Assembly (NCBI RefSeq): GCF_030149425.1
Contig: NZ_JASBRQ010000078.1
Coordinates: forward strand, 20,764-84,763
Reading direction: 5' to 3'
Origin: Maricaulis sp.
Lineage (GTDB): Bacteria > Pseudomonadota > Alphaproteobacteria > Caulobacterales > Maricaulaceae
DNA: 64,000 nucleotides
The notes below the pieces were generated by a model. The model was not told where the DNA came from. It was given only the letters and a program-made list of their open reading frames with translations, and made no database searches. Shown piece by piece: positions 13,159 to 47,590 of this stretch (positions are counted from its first letter, which is position 1; each line of letters begins with the position of its first letter). A program made the position numbers and the translations under genes.

Positions 13159-13485
13159 CTACCTATTCGCGATCTACATCTGGGAGCGGGCAGCCCGAGC
13201 GCATCACTCTCAGCGAAAAATTTTCAGAAACCCCTAAGATTTCGAGTGCTTGCACCGATTCGAAATGTCTTGAAGTTTTGAAATGAATACCCGCAACATA
13301 CTGCTTTTGCAGTATTTAAAATGAACCACGACGACCGTCGACATCTTGTCCCGGACAAATTTCCACAATCGGATTCTGTTTTCTTGACCGTGTCAGCCCG
13401 TATTCGCTGGACTTAGCCTTAAAGTTGTGAGCTGATTGGCGCGCCTTAAATACCGTTTAACGCAACCAAATTGAGGGGGAACGCC
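13159..13485 (+). promoter_or_regulatory. Long upstream region of the tail-collar operon
   Basis: This AT-richer stretch has no gene I can support. It holds a perfect inverted repeat at 13298-13315 (ATACTGC-TTTT-GCAGTAT) and ends in a strong ribosome binding site (GAGGGGGA) for the first tail-collar gene. It must contain the operon promoter, but I could not fix a -35/-10 pair. Confidence 0.4.
13298..13315. repeat. Perfect inverted repeat ahead of the tail-collar genes
   Basis: ATACTGC-TTTT-GCAGTAT, seven-base arms and a four-base loop, about 170 bases upstream of the first exported tail-collar gene. It could be an operator or an RNA hairpin. It lacks a following T-run typical of a terminator. 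Confidence 0.45.
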
Positions 13486-14100
13486 ATGTTACCAACGCTG
13501 AAACGCGCGATTGGTGGCCTTGCCATACTGCTATCAACAACCGTCGCCGCTACCACGCCAACCCAGGCTGACAGTAATCCGTATCTCGGCGACGTCATGC
13601 CGGTCGGGTTCGGGTTTTGCCCGCGTGGCTGGGCCCCAGCGGAAGGCCAGCTACTGTCGATCGCACAGTATGATGCGCTCTTCTCACTGCTGGGTACGAC
13701 CTATGGCGGCGATGGACGCTCGAGTTTTGCCCTGCCGGACCTGCGCAGCCGGGTTGTCGTCGGCGACGGACGCGCGCCGGGACTTCGCAATTGGGGCTGG
13801 GGTGCCCGATTTGGCACCGAAACCGTAACGCTGATCTCCAACAACCTGCCATCACACAGTCACTCGGTGAATTTGACCCCGGCTACGACCAATCTGTCCA
13901 ACTCCCCGGTCAATGCCATGATCTATGAGCGCAATGCGGGCGCTATCGACGGCTTCACCGATCAGCCCAATAACCTGGTGGCTATGCGTGCCGGGTCGAT
14001 CAGCAATACCGGCGGCGGTCAGTATCTCGACATCCGACAGCCGACGCTGGCCATTCACTGGTGCATTGCGCTCCAGGGCATCTATCCCTCGCGCAACTGA
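13486..14100 (+). CDS. Exported phage tail-collar (microcystin-dependent-like) protein 1
   Basis: A 204-residue protein with a signal peptide (hydrophobic stretch to about residue 27). A tail-collar/MdpB-like domain follows: YLGDVMPVGFGFCPRGW, LFSLLGTTYGGDGRSSFALPDLRSR, then LPSHSHSVNL, ending CIALQGIYPSRN. The family is known from phage tail fibres and bacterial microcystin-dependent proteins. The export signal and lack of any nearby phage gene argue for a cell-surface or secreted role. The strong AGGGGG site sets the ATG. It is first of three tandem paralogues. Confidence 0.85.
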   Translation: MLPTLKRAIGGLAILLSTTVAATTPTQADSNPYLGDVMPVGFGFCPRGWAPAEGQLLSIAQYDALFSLLGTTYGGDGRSSFALPDLRSRVVVGDGRAPGLRNWGWGARFGTETVTLISNNLPSHSHSVNLTPATTNLSNSPVNAMIYERNAGAIDGFTDQPNNLVAMRAGSISNTGGGQYLDIRQPTLAIHWCIALQGIYPSRN

Positions 14101-14126
14101 TCAGCTCGGAAACCGGAGATAAAGTT

Positions 14127-14717
14127 ATGAAACTCAAATCTGCACTTCTCGCGGCCGCGCTGATGGGCGCCGGCCTGGCCACAGCTCCGAGCGCATCGGC
14201 CCAGGAACCCTTCGTCGGTGAACTGCGCCTGTTCGGGAATAATTTCTGCCCGCGTAGTTGGGCCATGGCTCAGGGCCAGCTGCTGCCCATTGCTCAGAAC
14301 ACGGCCTTGTTCTCCTTGCTGGGAACCACCTATGGCGGCGATGGCCGCACCACTTTCGCCCTGCCGAATTTCGAAGGGCGCACACCCGTCGGCGTTGGCC
14401 GGGGCCCAGGCCTCAGCAATTACGTCTGGGGCGAACGTTCAGGTGCCGACATGCGTGTTCTAAGCAGCACGCAAATGCCGAGCCACAGCCACACGATGCG
14501 GGCATCGAACAACGTTATCGACACGCATGATGGTGCGGGTGACCTGTTCGGCGATTTCGGCGGCTTCCTGGCCTATGGCAGTAACACGAATGGCGGGCAG
14601 ATGAATAATGCCACGATCGCCAATACGGGTGGCGGCCAGTCCTTCTCGGTGCAGCAGCCGCAAATCGTCATGAACTGGTGCATCGCACTCGCTGGCGTCT
14701 ATCCGTCGCGCAACTAA
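14127..14717 (+). CDS. Exported phage tail-collar protein 2
   Basis: A 196-residue paralogue of its neighbours. A clear signal peptide (MKLKSALLAAALMGAG..., cleaved after ASA) is followed by the tail-collar core GTTYGGDGRTTFALPNFEGR, the histidine stretch MPSHSHTM and the ending CIALAGVYPSRN. The 26-base gap and GGAGA site ahead of the ATG place it in the same operon. As in its paralogues, a Cys sits in FCPRS/G near the mature N-terminus and another in WC near the C-terminus, so a disulfide is possible after export. Confidence 0.85.
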   Translation: MKLKSALLAAALMGAGLATAPSASAQEPFVGELRLFGNNFCPRSWAMAQGQLLPIAQNTALFSLLGTTYGGDGRTTFALPNFEGRTPVGVGRGPGLSNYVWGERSGADMRVLSSTQMPSHSHTMRASNNVIDTHDGAGDLFGDFGGFLAYGSNTNGGQMNNATIANTGGGQSFSVQQPQIVMNWCIALAGVYPSRN

Positions 14718-14755
14718 CCGCCACTTGTTTCGACCCAGATTGGGAGATTTTTTTC

Positions 14756-15337
14756 ATGCTTAAAGCATTAACGAGACTTTCAGTGGCCGCAGGCGCTGCC
14801 GCTACCCTCGCCGGAGCTGCACAGGCCGCTCCGGGTACGTTCCTCGGCGACATTCAGCTTGAGGGCTTCAACTTCTGTCCGCGCGGCACGCTCGAAGCTG
14901 CCGGCCAGCTTTTGCCGATCAACCAGAACCAGGCCTTGTTCTCGCTCTACGGGACCACCTATGGGGGCGATGGACGCACGACCTTTGCCTTGCCGGATCT
15001 GCGCGGCAGGGTCGCTGTGGGCTACGGTGCAGGACCGCGGCTGGGAACGCGCACGGGCGAAGAAACCCGCACGCTGACCGTCGCCAACATGCCGGCACAT
15101 AATCACCGGGTAAATACGGGCACCAGCGGCGTTGTGACCAATCCGACCAATGCTTCAATCACCGAATTGCCCGTGGGCGTGGATGTTTTCAGCGTCCCGG
15201 CCAACCCGACCGGCAGCACCATGAACAGCGCGATGATCGCCAATACGGGGGGCGGCCAAGCCTTCGATATCATCATGCCGACGCTGGCGATGAAATGGTG
15301 TGTCACCACACAGGGCACATTCCCGCCGCGCAACTAG
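14756..15337 (+). CDS. Exported phage tail-collar protein 3
   Basis: The third paralogue, 193 residues. The signal peptide ends near AAQA. The core has FNFCPRG, LFSLYGTTYGGDGRTTFALP, MPAHNH and a C-terminal WCVTTQGTFPPRN. It diverges most in the centre, where tail-collar proteins carry their variable region. GGGAGA lies upstream. It is the last gene before a strong terminator, so the three form a closed transcription unit. Confidence 0.85.
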   Translation: MLKALTRLSVAAGAAATLAGAAQAAPGTFLGDIQLEGFNFCPRGTLEAAGQLLPINQNQALFSLYGTTYGGDGRTTFALPDLRGRVAVGYGAGPRLGTRTGEETRTLTVANMPAHNHRVNTGTSGVVTNPTNASITELPVGVDVFSVPANPTGSTMNSAMIANTGGGQAFDIIMPTLAMKWCVTTQGTFPPRN

Positions 15338-42070: not shown

Positions 42071-43228
42071 TCAGCCGGAAAACAGCCCCGCTACGGCCTG
42101 GGAAAGGGCCTGGGCAGAGGCGGGCGCGGCTTCATCTCCGACCAATTGCACGATCACCTGCCCGGAGCCCGGCCGGCACACCAGCATTTGCCCGCCATCA
42201 CCCTCAGCATAGAAGCCAATGGCCGAGCCGGCTGCGCGCCGGGCGTCCGGCAAGCCGCGGCGCCAGGTATTGTCATGCCAAAGCTCGATTGCGCCTTCAC
42301 GGCCCGAGCTCGACAGGGGCAAGAGCGCATCGGTCGCAGCGGCCAGCAATTCCTCGACGCTGTACCCGCTTCCCATCAATCCCGACATGCGTTCCAACAC
42401 GGCCTCGTCGAGAGGTGGATCGGCGCTTTTCCAGGCCCCGACGACCTCCTCATCAATGGCGAAGCGCTCATCGGCCGGGTATAGGAGCCACCACAGCAAG
42501 CCATAATCCAGACGGGTGCGATGCGGGTCATCCGCCGCCGCGGGCGGTATGGGAGTGGTGGACCGCGCGCGCCAGTCAGCCGCAAGCAAGCGCTGACCGT
42601 GCCAGTGTCCGTCCCCGTTTATCAGGCGGCCGATATCTGCCAGCGCGCGTGGCGACAGGCGGCATCCGCTCATCCCCAGAGGATTGCCGGCCAGGTCGCT
42701 CTTCCAGTCCCAATCCGAAATCTCCAGCGGATCGAACAACAGTTCGCGTACAACATCGAGGAAGGGGGCCCCGGTCACGCGGCGAACGAATTCGGGCAAG
42801 AGATTGGTCGCAGCGTTGTTGTAGGCGAAACGCTGGCCAGGCTCCTCCACAAGATCGAGATCGAGCGCAAACCCAACCACATCTCCGGACGCGAAAACGG
42901 TTTCCGAATGTGCTGTGGCGTCGAGACCGGTCGTCTGGGCCATGAGTTGGCGCAGGGTTATGCCAGCCTTGGTCGTCTGCTTCCACTCGTCAAATATGTC
43001 ACCAAGCAAAAGGTCGGCGTCACTGAGCAAGCCGGCATACTCAAGCCGGCCAAGCAGGACGGAAATCACCGACTTGGTGACAGATCTGAGGTCGAACAGA
43101 TCTGGTGCCCGCGGCGAACGCCAATCAACCACCAGTGCGTCATGCTCGAAGACGACCAGCGCGTCACACACCGGCGATGACAGGTCCTGTATGAAGGCTT
43201 CGATCTTGGAATCGCTGGGCTGAGGCAT
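42071..43228 (-). CDS. Serine hydrolase, beta-lactamase/class C-like
   Basis: A 385-residue SxxK hydrolase. The catalytic motif is RSVTKS (Ser49, Lys52), followed by YNN near residue 129 as the Tyr-x-Asn element. No export signal is seen, unlike most class C beta-lactamases, so a cytoplasmic esterase or peptidase is more likely. The ATG at 43228 is preferred to a TTG at 43264. It lies 72 bases after the unknown gene of the lanthipeptide cluster and could be a fourth member, perhaps a peptidase, but this is only positional. Confidence 0.8.
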   Translation of the reverse strand: MPQPSDSKIEAFIQDLSSPVCDALVVFEHDALVVDWRSPRAPDLFDLRSVTKSVISVLLGRLEYAGLLSDADLLLGDIFDEWKQTTKAGITLRQLMAQTTGLDATAHSETVFASGDVVGFALDLDLVEEPGQRFAYNNAATNLLPEFVRRVTGAPFLDVVRELLFDPLEISDWDWKSDLAGNPLGMSGCRLSPRALADIGRLINGDGHWHGQRLLAADWRARSTTPIPPAAADDPHRTRLDYGLLWWLLYPADERFAIDEEVVGAWKSADPPLDEAVLERMSGLMGSGYSVEELLAAATDALLPLSSSGREGAIELWHDNTWRRGLPDARRAAGSAIGFYAEGDGGQMLVCRPGSGQVIVQLVGDEAAPASAQALSQAVAGLFSG

Positions 43229-43300
43229 GGCCGATAGCTTTGCTGCCCGCTTGCAAAAGAGCAAGCTGTGAGTGTTATCGGCAGGCTTGGGGGCAGAGAG

Positions 43301-44230
43301 TCAGCCTTGCTCGATCGTCTCGCCAGTCTCGTTCTCAACCAGGCGCAGGATTCGCCGCCAGGTCATCGGTAGATCGCCGGGGCCGCCCCCCAGATATCGA
43401 GAGGCAGCGGCCAGTAATGCATCCAGCTCAGCGCCGGGCATAGCGGCGCAGAAACGCCGCACGGCCTGCGCGCGCTCGGGCAATCTGTCCGCCAAGCCCT
43501 CCCATATCGGGCGCGCATCGAGGGATAGGGTCATGGAGCGCGCACGAGCATCGGCGCAGGTGCTGACGATTTCCGACATCAACTGGTCGGTGAGGAAGAC
43601 CCGTTCATCACGCCGCAAGTCTGTCTTGGGCTCGGGATCGATCCGCGTGTCTTCACCCAGCGGCCATGGCGCGTCTTTACTCCAGCAATAATCGAGGAGC
43701 TGGTCACACAGAGCAATTGCGCCGCGATGATCCCCCAGCGCCCAGACCAGTCGGGCCACATTGCGCGCCAGATGGACGCGGCGCATGGCCACGCTGTGAT
43801 CAAATTCCAGCGCCAGTGTTCGGCAATGCCGCAAGGCGCTGAGCATCTCCTCCTTCGCCGCCTCATGATGCGCCTCGACATGCTCCACGAAACCAGCGGC
43901 GGCGGCGTGGAATGAAGCGGCACTGACCTGGCCTTCCCGGTCCTCGATCCGAGAGGCAATGAGCGCGCTGGCCTCATCGAGAAGCCCCCGGGCTCGACGG
44001 GTCTGCGCTTTGCGCGCAAACACAAGCGCCTGTTCGCGCAACTGTGTCGCTTCGTTGAGGGCTTCCATGTCCGCCCTGGACACACGGCGGGAGAGATCGG
44101 CGACATAGCGCGCACTCTGGCGCTTCTCCATATTGGCTATGCGCGGGGCCGGGCGATCTGTGCCAGCAGAATAGGCGCGACGGACCTGATCCAGCGCTGT
44201 GGCGGAAAACTGGGCGGTGAGCAGATTCAT
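43301..44230 (-). CDS. Protein of unknown function coupled to the lanthipeptide synthetase
   Basis: A 309-residue, largely helical protein with no signal peptide, membrane segment or motif I recognise. Repeated Ala/Arg/Glu-rich helices (about 55-215) look TPR-like or like a four-helix bundle. Its ATG overlaps the synthetase TGA (ATGA), so the two are translationally coupled and probably act together. Possible roles are a scaffold, a leader-binding partner or an immunity protein. It is not a transporter, peptidase or known lanthipeptide accessory enzyme by sequence. Confidence 0.75.
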   Translation of the reverse strand: MNLLTAQFSATALDQVRRAYSAGTDRPAPRIANMEKRQSARYVADLSRRVSRADMEALNEATQLREQALVFARKAQTRRARGLLDEASALIASRIEDREGQVSAASFHAAAAGFVEHVEAHHEAAKEEMLSALRHCRTLALEFDHSVAMRRVHLARNVARLVWALGDHRGAIALCDQLLDYCWSKDAPWPLGEDTRIDPEPKTDLRRDERVFLTDQLMSEIVSTCADARARSMTLSLDARPIWEGLADRLPERAQAVRRFCAAMPGAELDALLAAASRYLGGGPGDLPMTWRRILRLVENETGETIEQG

Positions 44231-46884
44231 GACCGGGCCTCCCAGAAGGCCGCGGGCAATAATAATGGCATGCTGAGATCCGAGCGATCGGCGGTCCCAG
44301 CCCGGGCCAGGGCATGGACGACACCGGCGCACCCCGTCATCAGGTCGGGCTCAAACGCGTGGGCATTCTCGACATGCCAGGCCGAGCCGCGCGACATCGG
44401 TACGGCCAGCTCGGCCAACAAGCCGGCAAAGGCGACGCCCTGCTCCTGCATGACCTCGTCGCCTAGGACGTCATGGCCTTCCAGCAGCATTTCAGACAAT
44501 CCGGCAAGGCCGTGGCACTGGCTCAGATTTGCCGGACGGATCGACGCGGGGATTGAGCGCAAGGCCGCCCTGGCCGTTCCCGCGTGGAGCGCATCACCGG
44601 TTGCGCGATAAAGGGCCAGGAAAGCCAGCGCAATGCCTGGCGCCCCATGACACCACCAGGTCCAGGCATCGCTGGTCTCCGGCGTCATCGTCCAGCTGAG
44701 CCCACTTCCGCTTGCCGTTGGCGACGCTTCGCCAAGCAGCCAGTCAGCCGCAACAAGCGCCGCGTCGAGCGATGCCTCATCCTTACGCGCAGCCGCGTGG
44801 GCGGCGAGGAAATAGACCACGCCAGCAGCCCCGTGCGCAAAACCGGTATAGCTTTGTCCTGTCATCTCGCGAACGCCTTCCGGCAGGGCCCAGCCGCCCT
44901 CATCCGCCTGCGTATCCCGCAGATGCCCGGCATAAGCATCCGCCGCCTCGATAAGCCAGGGTTCAGACAGGTGATGGCCGCACAGCAAGGCACCAACCCC
45001 CTGACCGGCACTGCCGTGCGACAGGTCTGGCCAGTTGGGCTCTGAGGTGAAGACCTGACGCAGATAGGGCTCGGTCCACGGGCCGGTTTGAATCAATCCC
45101 GCCGAAATCGCCTCGCAGATCGCGACCGCCACGCCGGCCTCCCCGAAATGCAGCCCCGGCAACTGGTCGTCGGACGTATCTTCATGAGCCAGCAGCCAGT
45201 CAACGGCGCGGTTGACCGTACCGAGAGTTTGCGACGGCGCGATCAGGCCGATACGGGCCGCGCGCGCCAGCATGTAGAGAATCCCCGCCACGCCCCGATT
45301 GGCACTGCGATAGACGCGCCAATCGACCACCGGCGCTCCCGTCGGAGTATGCGAGGCTTCCAGCGCCGGAGACAGCCACATGCCATTGTCTTCCGAACGC
45401 GCCGCGTCACCGAGCAGCCAGTGACAGCCCGCGCTTGCCTGCTCGATCAGGCGCTGGCGCGGCGGGGATTGCGGTCCAGCGGTTTGCGGCATGGCGACGG
45501 CACGATCCAATGCCGCACGCAGAGCCGCAAGGGTCGGGCGATCGGCAGGGTCGAGGGCCAGGCCTCCGGCCAGCAAGCTGCACAATTCGTCACCGGCTCC
45601 GGACAAGCGGGCCAGCCGGCGCCCGCCATCCTTTATTCCAGCGGGAAGCTGATGCCCGGCAAAACCTGTCAGCAGCGCCGCCGCAACCGCGGCGAAGGAA
45701 TAGATATCGTCCGCTATGACCGGCCATTCGCCACGCTTCTGGCCGGGAGATATGAACCCCACCGTGCCCTGACTGAACGGCGCCTCGGTAGACGCAAGGG
45801 AATGGGCAAGCTCGAGATCAATCAGCACGGCCTGACCGCCGGACATCCGGATATTGTTCGGCGTCAGATCGCGGTGAACATAACCTTGGGCGTGAAGCGC
45901 ATCGATCGCTGCCGCGGTTGCGGCCAGATCGCGCAAAAACTGCTCGCGCCCGGCGGCATCGCGCGAATGAAACGGTGTGCCGAGATAGGTGGCGAGCCCA
46001 TAGCCCTCGACCAGTTCCAGTGCGACATAAGTATCGGCGTCCTGGTCAAACAGGGCGGCCACCTGCGGCACGGCCAAATTCCCGCTCAGAGCCGCAGACA
46101 GGCCGGCCTGATGGCGCAGACGATCGCGGATATCACGGCCTTCCACGTCGGACATGCATCCTGCGCGCCCGTGTTTGAGAACCACTTTGCGCACCTGAGC
46201 CTGGGACTGCATGTCCAGCGCGAGAAAGACACTGCCCTTGGCGTGATCGGCCAGTTTTCCGGTCGGCAAAAAGCGGCCGCCGAGCAGCTGGTATTGATCT
46301 GCTGGCCTGGAGGAGGCGACGGGTTGGAAGCGCTCCGCCCCGGCTGCCCCCTCGGGAACGTTGAACGGAACCTGGTAGCGCACCAGCGGCTCATCTTCAT
46401 CGAGTGTTTCGAACAGGCCGAGCCGGTTGCGCCGCTTGCGGCCGGCGAACTCGCCGTAGCGGGCATAGACAATGGACCCGAGATGCATGTCCGTGACGAT
46501 GCTGGGACCAGTAAAGCCGCTTGTGAGGTCGAGCAGTTCAGCGACCAGGTTGGCTGGCCCGGGGTCGGCGATCTCGTCGACATAGATTGTCGCGAACTTG
46601 CCAACCTGGGTCGCTCCGAGGAGCCCTTCGTTCAACAGCCCCAGAATGCTCGGATCCGCTGCGACTTTGAACGGCACGTCAAAACGGGCGAGGCAGGGCA
46701 CGATCCGCTCCATGAGCGATTCCGCCTCGACCTGCACGGATGAGAGATGCAGTTTCCAGCCATGCGGGCGCACGGGCATTCCAACCTGGGCCCAGACCCC
46801 CATACGCTTTGCCGGGAGGCCAAGCTCAACAAGCGCATCACAATAAGTGCGCCTATCAGTTTTAGCCCCCCCTGCATCGTGCAT
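44227..46884 (-). CDS. Class III/IV lanthipeptide synthetase (lyase-kinase-LanC cyclase)
   Basis: An 885-residue three-domain enzyme. An N-terminal phospho-Ser/Thr lyase region (about 30-200, with GWKLHLSS) precedes a Ser/Thr kinase (about 210-470). The kinase has VVLKHG, the catalytic loop YVHRDLTPNN and LIDLELA in place of DFG. A LanC-like cyclase follows (about 520-885) with zinc ligands Cys745 (WWCHG) and Cys790/His791 (SQCHG). Intact zinc ligands point to class IV (LanL) more than class III (LanKC). It would phosphorylate and eliminate Ser in the upstream precursor and add Cys thiols. A GTG at 46926 is an alternative start. Confidence 0.9.
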   Translation of the reverse strand: MHDAGGAKTDRRTYCDALVELGLPAKRMGVWAQVGMPVRPHGWKLHLSSVQVEAESLMERIVPCLARFDVPFKVAADPSILGLLNEGLLGATQVGKFATIYVDEIADPGPANLVAELLDLTSGFTGPSIVTDMHLGSIVYARYGEFAGRKRRNRLGLFETLDEDEPLVRYQVPFNVPEGAAGAERFQPVASSRPADQYQLLGGRFLPTGKLADHAKGSVFLALDMQSQAQVRKVVLKHGRAGCMSDVEGRDIRDRLRHQAGLSAALSGNLAVPQVAALFDQDADTYVALELVEGYGLATYLGTPFHSRDAAGREQFLRDLAATAAAIDALHAQGYVHRDLTPNNIRMSGGQAVLIDLELAHSLASTEAPFSQGTVGFISPGQKRGEWPVIADDIYSFAAVAAALLTGFAGHQLPAGIKDGGRRLARLSGAGDELCSLLAGGLALDPADRPTLAALRAALDRAVAMPQTAGPQSPPRQRLIEQASAGCHWLLGDAARSEDNGMWLSPALEASHTPTGAPVVDWRVYRSANRGVAGILYMLARAARIGLIAPSQTLGTVNRAVDWLLAHEDTSDDQLPGLHFGEAGVAVAICEAISAGLIQTGPWTEPYLRQVFTSEPNWPDLSHGSAGQGVGALLCGHHLSEPWLIEAADAYAGHLRDTQADEGGWALPEGVREMTGQSYTGFAHGAAGVVYFLAAHAAARKDEASLDAALVAADWLLGEASPTASGSGLSWTMTPETSDAWTWWCHGAPGIALAFLALYRATGDALHAGTARAALRSIPASIRPANLSQCHGLAGLSEMLLEGHDVLGDEVMQEQGVAFAGLLAELAVPMSRGSAWHVENAHAFEPDLMTGCAGVVHALARAGTADRSDLSMPLLLPAAFWEARS

Positions 46885-46949
46885 CGGTCTCGGTCCCGCG
46901 TCGTTATGCTGCCTACTCAGCTCCACCAGAAAACGGACGAAACGCCGCT

Positions 46950-47495
46950 CTAGCGCATGAAGGCGGAGAACTCCTTGATCTCAGCCTGGATCAGCGGAAT
47001 GAGCTTCTGGGCATCGTCGATTTCCATTTCCGGCAATGGCGTCGAATACCAGTCGTCCACAGCCGCCAGCACACCGGAGGCGACACAACTGGCGATGCAG
47101 CTTGCAGCACAACTGGCCACGCAGCTGCCGCCGCAGGAGGCACCGCAGCTACCGCCGCAACTACCGCCGCAGGAGGCGCCACAGCTGGCACCGCAACTGC
47201 CACCACAACTCGCACCGCAGCTCGCACCACAACCATCGCCGTCGCTGGCGCGATGGAAATCTATCGTGATGAGATCCTTCGGATTGACCACGCTGACGAG
47301 TGCGCGCTCATTGTCATCGAGCCCCTTGAGCTCCCCCACAACAGATTGCGGGTCGGTGCTCAGCCGGAAATACAAATCCCGGTTGCTCTTCAGCTCAGTG
47401 ATCAGATTGTCCAGTCCGCTGCCCGCCGCTTCCGACATCGCCTCGGCTTGCGCGCTCGGACGCTTGGTGGTCGGCGGTTTACGTTTTGAAGCCAT
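46950..47495 (-). CDS. Lanthipeptide-type precursor with thirteen Cys-x-x-Ser repeats
   Basis: A 181-residue RiPP-like precursor. Residues 1-88 are a charged leader with a helical LDNLITELK stretch. Residues 89-140 are thirteen perfect tetrapeptides C-x-x-S, with Cys at 89, 93 and every fourth residue to 137 and Ser at 92 to 140. The x-x pairs are GA or GG in the first nine and VA, AA, IA, VA in the last four. An acidic 41-residue C-terminal tail follows, unusual for lanthipeptides. GGGGAGG lies seven bases before the ATG. The synthetase gene is immediately downstream. Modification by that enzyme is inferred; a metal-binding or structural role is the alternative. Confidence 0.88.
   Translation of the reverse strand: MASKRKPPTTKRPSAQAEAMSEAAGSGLDNLITELKSNRDLYFRLSTDPQSVVGELKGLDDNERALVSVVNPKDLITIDFHRASDGDGCGASCGASCGGSCGASCGASCGGSCGGSCGASCGGSCVASCAASCIASCVASGVLAAVDDWYSTPLPEMEIDDAQKLIPLIQAEIKEFSAFMR
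47076..47231 (-). repeat. Thirteen in-frame 12-bp repeats encoding Cys-x-x-Ser
   Basis: Thirteen consecutive 12-base units within the precursor gene. The Ser codons alternate among AGC, AGT and TCC and the Cys codons between TGC and TGT, so units are alike in protein but not in DNA. TCC cannot change to AGC or AGT in one step, which argues for selection on the amino-acid pattern over an old array. Confidence 0.9.
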
Positions 47496-47590
47496 GAGTT
47501 GTCCTCCCCTATCCCGTTACGGGTATGGCTGTGGAACTCGTACATGGGTGTGGTCTCGCCGGGCGCTGTGACACCGTCCGGCACAACCGA

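Follow-up and report, generated by a model that had tools for sequence, protein, structure and literature searches.

The window, a stretch of 64,000 nucleotides from a Maricaulis sp. contig, contains on its minus strand a predicted precursor peptide gene of 181 amino acids (46950..47495), with the Shine-Dalgarno-like sequence GGGGAGGA situated six bases 5' of its ATG (47502..47509, minus strand). The prediction draws on the open reading frame (ORF) call, on 73 homologues, and on the occurrence elsewhere of a leader recognized by a hidden Markov model (leader-HMM) together with a ladder beside LanL genes. The earlier note had described in this ORF thirteen unbroken C-x-x-S units between an 88-residue leader and a 41-residue acidic tail, and each of these parts was confirmed. 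The ladder core spans residues 89-140 (47076..47231, minus strand), with Cys at positions 89, 93, and every fourth residue up to 137 and none elsewhere in the protein. It is followed by the tail (residues 141-181; 46953..47075, minus strand), which contains four Asp, four Glu, two Lys, and one Arg residue and ends in EFSAFMR. A long conserved tail C-terminal to the core is unusual among lanthipeptides. The same note had held that the periodicity is kept in the protein, and that the core has two zones; both points were borne out. Cys codons were divided between TGC (8) and TGT (5) and Ser codons among AGC (5), AGT (5), and TCC (3), the 12-mers coding for the units were all distinct (13/13), and Tandem Repeats Finder returned only weak 12-, 24-, and 36-base repeats with 62-83% matches, so the period is maintained at the protein level. 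Position 2 is Gly in units 1-9, followed by Val, Ala, Ile, and Val in units 10-13.

Immediately downstream of the precursor gene, on the same strand and ahead of gene 3 and then gene 4, lies the gene for a LanL-type (class IV) lanthionine synthetase (44227..46926, minus strand; likely start ATG 46884), identified by its domains and residues. Its RamC_N, Pkinase, and LANC_like domains all scored above the Pfam cut-offs, and its best solved relative was 8car, with a near full-length match. Scores with the NCBIfam models were 446 bits for NF038150 (LanL) and 253 bits for NF038151 (LanKC), both under the curated cut-offs. The 650-bit cut-off of NF038150 was missed by the window synthetase and by eight other members of its branch (all nine between 446 and 551 bits), in contrast to two Streptomyces LanLs that reached 966 and 1086 bits; because this cut-off was not reached, we describe the synthetase as class IV-like and as part of a separate branch. 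In an alignment of 56 synthetases, which includes LanLs from outside the ladder branch, K202, D304, N309, and D321 of the kinase and H11, K38, and K61 of the lyase region were present in all 56 rows, that of the window included; we take the latter three residues to have lyase roles. The zinc ligands C710, C755, and H756 (P0077 numbering) were each retained in 55 of the 56 rows and are present in the window enzyme. Zinc ligands in the cyclase domain are at odds with a class III (LanKC, labionin) system, for which the expected motif is Ser-x-x-Ser-x(2-5)-Cys, as is the absence from the ladder of S-x-x-S without Cys, given that the Ser-Ser spacing is four and a Cys follows every Ser but the last. 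The adjacent precursor gene with both Ser/Thr and Cys in its core corresponds to class IV, and the cognate lanthipeptide synthetase that had been claimed to lie beside the precursor is thus found to be LanL-type.

Gene 3 (43301..44332, minus strand) probably starts at ATG 44230, which overlaps the stop codon of LanL. Neither Pfam nor NCBIfam gave a significant match for it, and a HopA1 match (E 0.021) was taken as chance. A 25% identical homologue was observed directly 3' of LanL in the alphaproteobacterial metagenome-assembled genome (MAG) locus L016. Gene 3 is a candidate for a new accessory protein of the ladder system. Gene 4 (42071..43264, minus strand) encodes a serine hydrolase of the beta-lactamase family (PF00144, E 1.2e-23) bearing the motifs S61-V-T-K64 and Y148-N-N, a candidate processing enzyme, and a 31% identical homologue is located one gene past LanL in L023.

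Within the genus sample, the cluster was present in one of 19 genomes, that of the window itself, and the precursor was absent at the protein level from the 18 others. DNA of other genus-sample genomes matched the window up to about 42043 and again from about 47832, the one exception between these flanks being a 41-base match in a single genome. In three relatives the two flanks are found at separate places, which shows that the surroundings themselves have been rearranged; a fourth has 180 bases between its symporter and nucleoside-transporter regions, compared with 7.6 kb in the window, an interval in which the cluster lies together with two nucleoside genes. The four-gene cluster may be an acquired unit. 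When larger samples were searched, the leader profile, which has limited reach for window-type leaders, matched one of 398 phylum-sample genomes (the window's own, E 1.5e-4), and the synthetase at E 1e-60 likewise matched only the window's own among 385 class-sample genomes. A pattern scan of genome contigs with the leader alignment gave four stretches, none of which was confirmed, and no match was obtained in a plasmid collection searched with P0047 and P0050. Core-based matches in two family genomes and ten phylum-sample genomes were rejected as unrelated Cys-periodic translations, and their loci (1.6-3.2 kb) matched neither the leader-HMM nor the LanL-HMM. Elsewhere in the window, positions 13471-15334 hold three consecutive ORFs of 209-219 codons with the motifs GDV/GEL/GDI and then FCPR[GS]W or FCPRG, resembling tandem tail-collar-type proteins.

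Conservation of the ladder and its leader

A protein search over 5.8 billion proteins, in which 7,989 candidates were scored, gave 76 matches. Three were excluded before units were counted, leaving 73 homologues: P0071, a different protein whose position 4 is often Lys; P0073, whose sequence becomes unrelated past eight units; and P0076, a different short protein. The ladder comprised 6-10 units in 29 homologues and 13-15 units in the other 44. Precursor length was 138-234 amino acids in 72 of the 73, the exception being P0070 with 100, which was also the only homologue without a tail of at least 30 residues; an FSRFxR-like C-terminus was found in 72/73 with a loose regular expression. Across the 875 units, positions 2 and 3 were variable, and position 4 was Ser in 736 units, Thr in 138, and Gly in one. 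Since the runs were delimited by Cys alone, position 4 provides a fair test, and a dehydrating enzyme would be expected to accept just such an exchange, limited to Ser and Thr. When three Legionella and three Massilia precursors were compared, the codons for the ladder Cys and Ser/Thr showed synonymous changes or none in all six pairs, with zero replacements, and the remaining codons had 9-23 replacements per pair. A Cys-every-fourth ladder kept by 73 homologues, together with synonymous-only change in relatives, argues that the window ladder is not a product of chance.

The same data bear on the idea of a metallothionein-like ladder that stays unmodified and serves in metal binding or redox chemistry, with the synthetase working on another substrate. 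Thirteen regularly spaced Cys would suit such a peptide, as would the negative outcome of a crude motif test for ABC-transporter-like ORFs in the window; however, Ser/Thr at position 4 in 874 of the 875 units is not needed for metal binding, and the ladder is linked to one LanL branch, which makes this explanation quite improbable.

In the Legionella and Massilia precursors, the ladder is built from a five-unit module, e.g., CGNTCSSSCDNTCGQSCGYT, present two or three times, and because of this modular repetition a single precursor may yield several products. The corresponding loci (L018, L023, and L025, 8.6-9.8 kb; L021, L022, and L026, 8.9-9.9 kb) were observed to have two tandem precursor genes 5' of the synthetase, one encoding the two or three repeated five-unit modules and the other a more irregular Cys-rich core that ends in CG[NS]TCGDSCG[FY]T.

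Of the 73 homologues, 54 carry a precomputed Pfam accession, PF27846, and many of the family are therefore grouped by Pfam already. What this accession covers may be the Cys repeat and not the leader, since the excluded P0071, whose N-terminus looks unrelated, has it as well. P0071 itself has 249 residues, a twin-arginine-like start, and 24 Cys-every-fourth units with mostly Ser or Lys at position 4. The Cys period is also shared with the Cys-Xaa-Xaa-Xaa repeats targeted by radical SAM enzymes (TIGR04117, TIGR04114), and the ladder could be imagined as a target of this kind, cross-linked by another enzyme: TIGR04117 matched 32 of 73 aligned proteins (best 8.5e-7) and TIGR04114 27 of 73. These matches, however, are probably due to the Cys period. 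In the window protein neither model matched at E 1 or better, and the modification enzyme next to it is LanL, the other cluster genes having other domains or none. The family further differs from TIGR04117 targets in its near-invariant Ser/Thr and in its partner enzyme, and we consider a radical SAM origin of the cross-links very remote.

Most homologues share a common leader form, ...FFHDLVWNTE...LDYLSREEKAAIL..PEDLVVGL, of which the window leader is a divergent version. AlphaFold2, run with 73 sequences, predicted a helical folded part at residues 27-77 of the window leader (47265..47417, minus strand), in which the ten-residue blocks from 31 to 70 had pLDDT values of 92-95. The core of the unmodified peptide was predicted to be disordered (mostly pLDDT under 50), and the tail to form a helix with medium confidence. 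Fold matches of the leader were weak (Foldseek E above 1), consisting mostly of OphA-type borosin enzymes or clasp domains, the SonA leader, and Os1348, along with unrelated chains, including an ATP synthase subunit. NF038399 (Os1348/NHLP-clan) matched 26 of the 73 aligned proteins (the window and 72 homologues; best 2.6e-5), with no match to the window precursor, and a sequence-profile search of solved structures found no relative. As the fold matches are mostly of one kind and NF038399 is found in 26/73, the leader of the ladder family may well be NHLP-like; like the NHLP-clan leader peptides (the Os1348 family NF038399 and the SonA borosin leader), it is short and predicted to be helical. 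In the main text of a 2020 survey, the sole mention of an NHLP-type leader concerns class II families (PMC7268733). An FEA1 match of the window precursor (E 0.19) was taken as chance.

Linkage of the precursors to one synthetase branch

Linkage was assessed by comparing the 34 precursor homologues whose contigs measure 4 kb or more (P0071 excluded) with two listed sets of synthetase homologues, each search having scored about 8,000 candidates and been kept to E 1e-30 or 1e-100. Among the matches listed, precursor and synthetase were found on longest contigs of identical size for 21 of the 34, and a control in which sizes were shifted by 1-200 bases both ways gave a mean of 0.22 pairs and a maximum of 2. 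One pair, from Paraburkholderia sp. Se-20369, was confirmed by name. The earlier note had named homologous precursors without a nearby synthetase as a result that would speak against it. On this point the outcome was mixed: the 21 pairs are in its favour, and 13 of the 34 precursors, among them P0039 on a 1.9 Mb contig, had no size-matched synthetase among the matches listed.

The note had also proposed searching genomes for C-x-x-S ladders beside such synthetase genes, and this search was positive. When the synthetase alignment was used to scan the contigs of named genomes, 484 LanL loci were confirmed; among the best 80 of these, 11 contained an unbroken run of at least four C-x-x-[ST] units, and 13 had the leader domain, detected with the leader profile, 5' of the synthetase. 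These leader loci came from Massilia (3), Legionella (3), Haematobacter, Nevskia, an alphaproteobacterial MAG, a deltaproteobacterial MAG, a Bacillota MAG, Cellulomonas, and a cyanobacterium, so that 10 of the 13 in named genomes belong to Pseudomonadota. The ladder is broken in the Bacillota locus and absent from the cyanobacterial one. The latter holds a precursor-like ORF (L017:9182-9658) that begins like a signal peptide, contains the leader domain, and has CVCTGCC as its short core. The other 67 of the best 80 (of 484) loci had neither leader nor ladder, apart from a weak profile match in L076 (leader-HMM E 0.019), which was not counted as a leader locus as it lacks a Cys ladder. An ABC-transporter-like ORF was found in one of the 13 leader loci and in 42 of the 67 others, figures that are indicative only, given the crude motif test and the differing lengths of the loci.

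A tree of 101 synthetases was built by a quick method from 79 of the 80 loci and 22 linked homologues, the window included. A single branch (SH-aLRT 100) separated all 34 leader-linked synthetases from the 67 without a leader; the linked homologues had been picked for linkage, and 12 of the 34 leader rows, those from the loci, had not, while one leader row, L024, sits on a long, unsure branch. The 650-residue rule for the tree was satisfied by twelve of the 13 leader loci and not by L027. In this deltaproteobacterial MAG locus the synthetase (L027:10070-12333) is split over two frames, reflecting either a sequencing error or a broken gene. Judged from these sequence comparisons, the pairing of precursor and synthetase is well supported.

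Proposed mechanism and ring topology

We consider it likely that the window ORF is the precursor of a distinct class IV lanthipeptide branch, in which the adjacent LanL would dehydrate the thirteen Ser and add the thirteen Cys. The 446-bit score, the 13 of 34 unpaired precursors, the TIGR04117 matches, the unusual tail, and the quick tree with its unsure L024 row are points against this explanation. According to the proposed mechanism, the helical leader (residues 27-77) would dock on the synthetase, the kinase domain would phosphorylate every ladder Ser, the lyase domain would convert phosphorylated Ser to dehydroalanine, and the zinc cyclase would add Cys thiols to the dehydroalanines. Gene 4 may cut the product, which may stay in the cell or exit via an unlinked route, since the window gave no ABC-transporter-like ORF in the crude motif test.

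It is conceivable that the chemistry stops short of the last step, the Ser being phosphorylated or dehydrated without cyclisation, to give a polydehydroalanine or a phosphopeptide with free thiols. Incomplete modification is reported for clusters expressed elsewhere, e.g., LanII-2E and LanII-2B (PMC9576775), but the cyclase zinc ligands are kept in 55/56 rows and the only changes at Cys codons among the relatives compared are synonymous, and we regard such an outcome as improbable.

If cyclisation does occur, the preferred scheme is one in which Cys(i) attacks dehydroalanine(i+3) inside its own unit, producing a predicted ladder of thirteen four-residue rings in series. The Ser/Thr of the last unit is kept in 72 of the 73 homologues and that of the second-last in all 73, two Ser/Thr are available within 12 residues N-terminal to the ladder in only 28 of 73, and a Ser/Thr immediately precedes the first ladder Cys in 9 of 73. 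By conservation, the retention of the last Ser/Thr and the few leaders that offer two Ser/Thr favour the in-unit, Cys-first ring. On the other hand, in most lanthipeptide bridges the partner of a Cys is an earlier Ser/Thr at a distance of at least three residues, as described in a 2024 survey (PMC11251773), and the forward Ser-before-Cys rule given there reproduces 92 of 100 characterised lanthipeptides, a fit that speaks against the in-unit ring. When applied to the window ladder, the forward rule yields interlocked Ser(n)-Cys(n+2) rings, in which the first two Cys and the last two Ser lack a ladder partner.

This alternative retains the same chemistry and competes with the in-unit scheme, not with the pairing of precursor and synthetase. 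It would give the window peptide eleven rings of six-residue span, all interlocked, and either two Cys and two dehydroalanines would remain unpaired or the first two Cys would be joined to Ser/Thr of the leader. Besides the general rule, it is favoured by S84 and T77, both within 12 residues of the ladder in the window leader. It does not, however, explain why the Ser/Thr of the last unit, not needed under it, is so widely kept, most homologues do not offer the two upstream Ser/Thr, and the overlaps reported or predicted in the 2024 survey (PMC11251773) number no more than five. We therefore view forward topology as less likely than not. The in-unit scheme extends to a broader proposal, that a separate LanL lineage builds polythioether ladders with 13-15 four-residue in-unit rings formed in the reverse direction, which would be the most densely cross-linked ribosomal peptides known; we put this forward tentatively, at somewhat short of an even chance.

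Relation to known lanthipeptides

The characterised class IV members venezuelin, globisporin, and SflA (PMC9576775, PMC12328550) resemble the system described here in having a three-domain synthetase beside a Ser/Cys precursor. The ladder synthetases differ in forming a separate tree branch with lower NF038150 scores, and the ladder precursors in their greater length, their conserved leader, their 6-15 units, and, except in P0070, their long tail. In the sources consulted, precursor lengths are given as 29-100 residues (PMC11251773), and the 2020 survey discarded precursor ORFs above 120 residues (PMC7268733); most ladder precursors exceed both figures and would be missed by the latter limit. 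Geobacillin I and elgicin, with seven rings, are comparable in having many thioether rings per chain, seven being the maximum stated for known lanthipeptides in the 2024 survey (PMC11251773); in contrast, the window ladder offers thirteen predicted rings and its relatives up to fifteen.

The ladder was not described in the literature searched, which covered open main texts; in it, ladder strings matched only one unrelated DNA paper, and there was no mention of PF27846. From the sequence evidence, we conclude that the ladder systems form a genuine and conserved branch among the class IV-like lanthipeptides, undescribed in the literature searched, and the best reading is a new class IV lanthipeptide lineage with the densest predicted thioether cross-linking. 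A 2022 study produced class IV products from Chondromyces and Streptomyces clusters (PMC9576775), and a 2025 review gives class IV as known only from Actinobacteria and Firmicutes (PMC12328550); the branch described here belongs, in named genomes, mostly to Pseudomonadota. If the ladder closes, the record of seven rings would be nearly doubled, and the family would offer a test of how a single synthetase works along a repeat. It would also provide a rigid repeat scaffold whose length already ranges from 6 to 15 units, and it would make directly testable a question posed in the 2024 survey, namely whether it is synthesis or use that limits the number of rings (PMC11251773).
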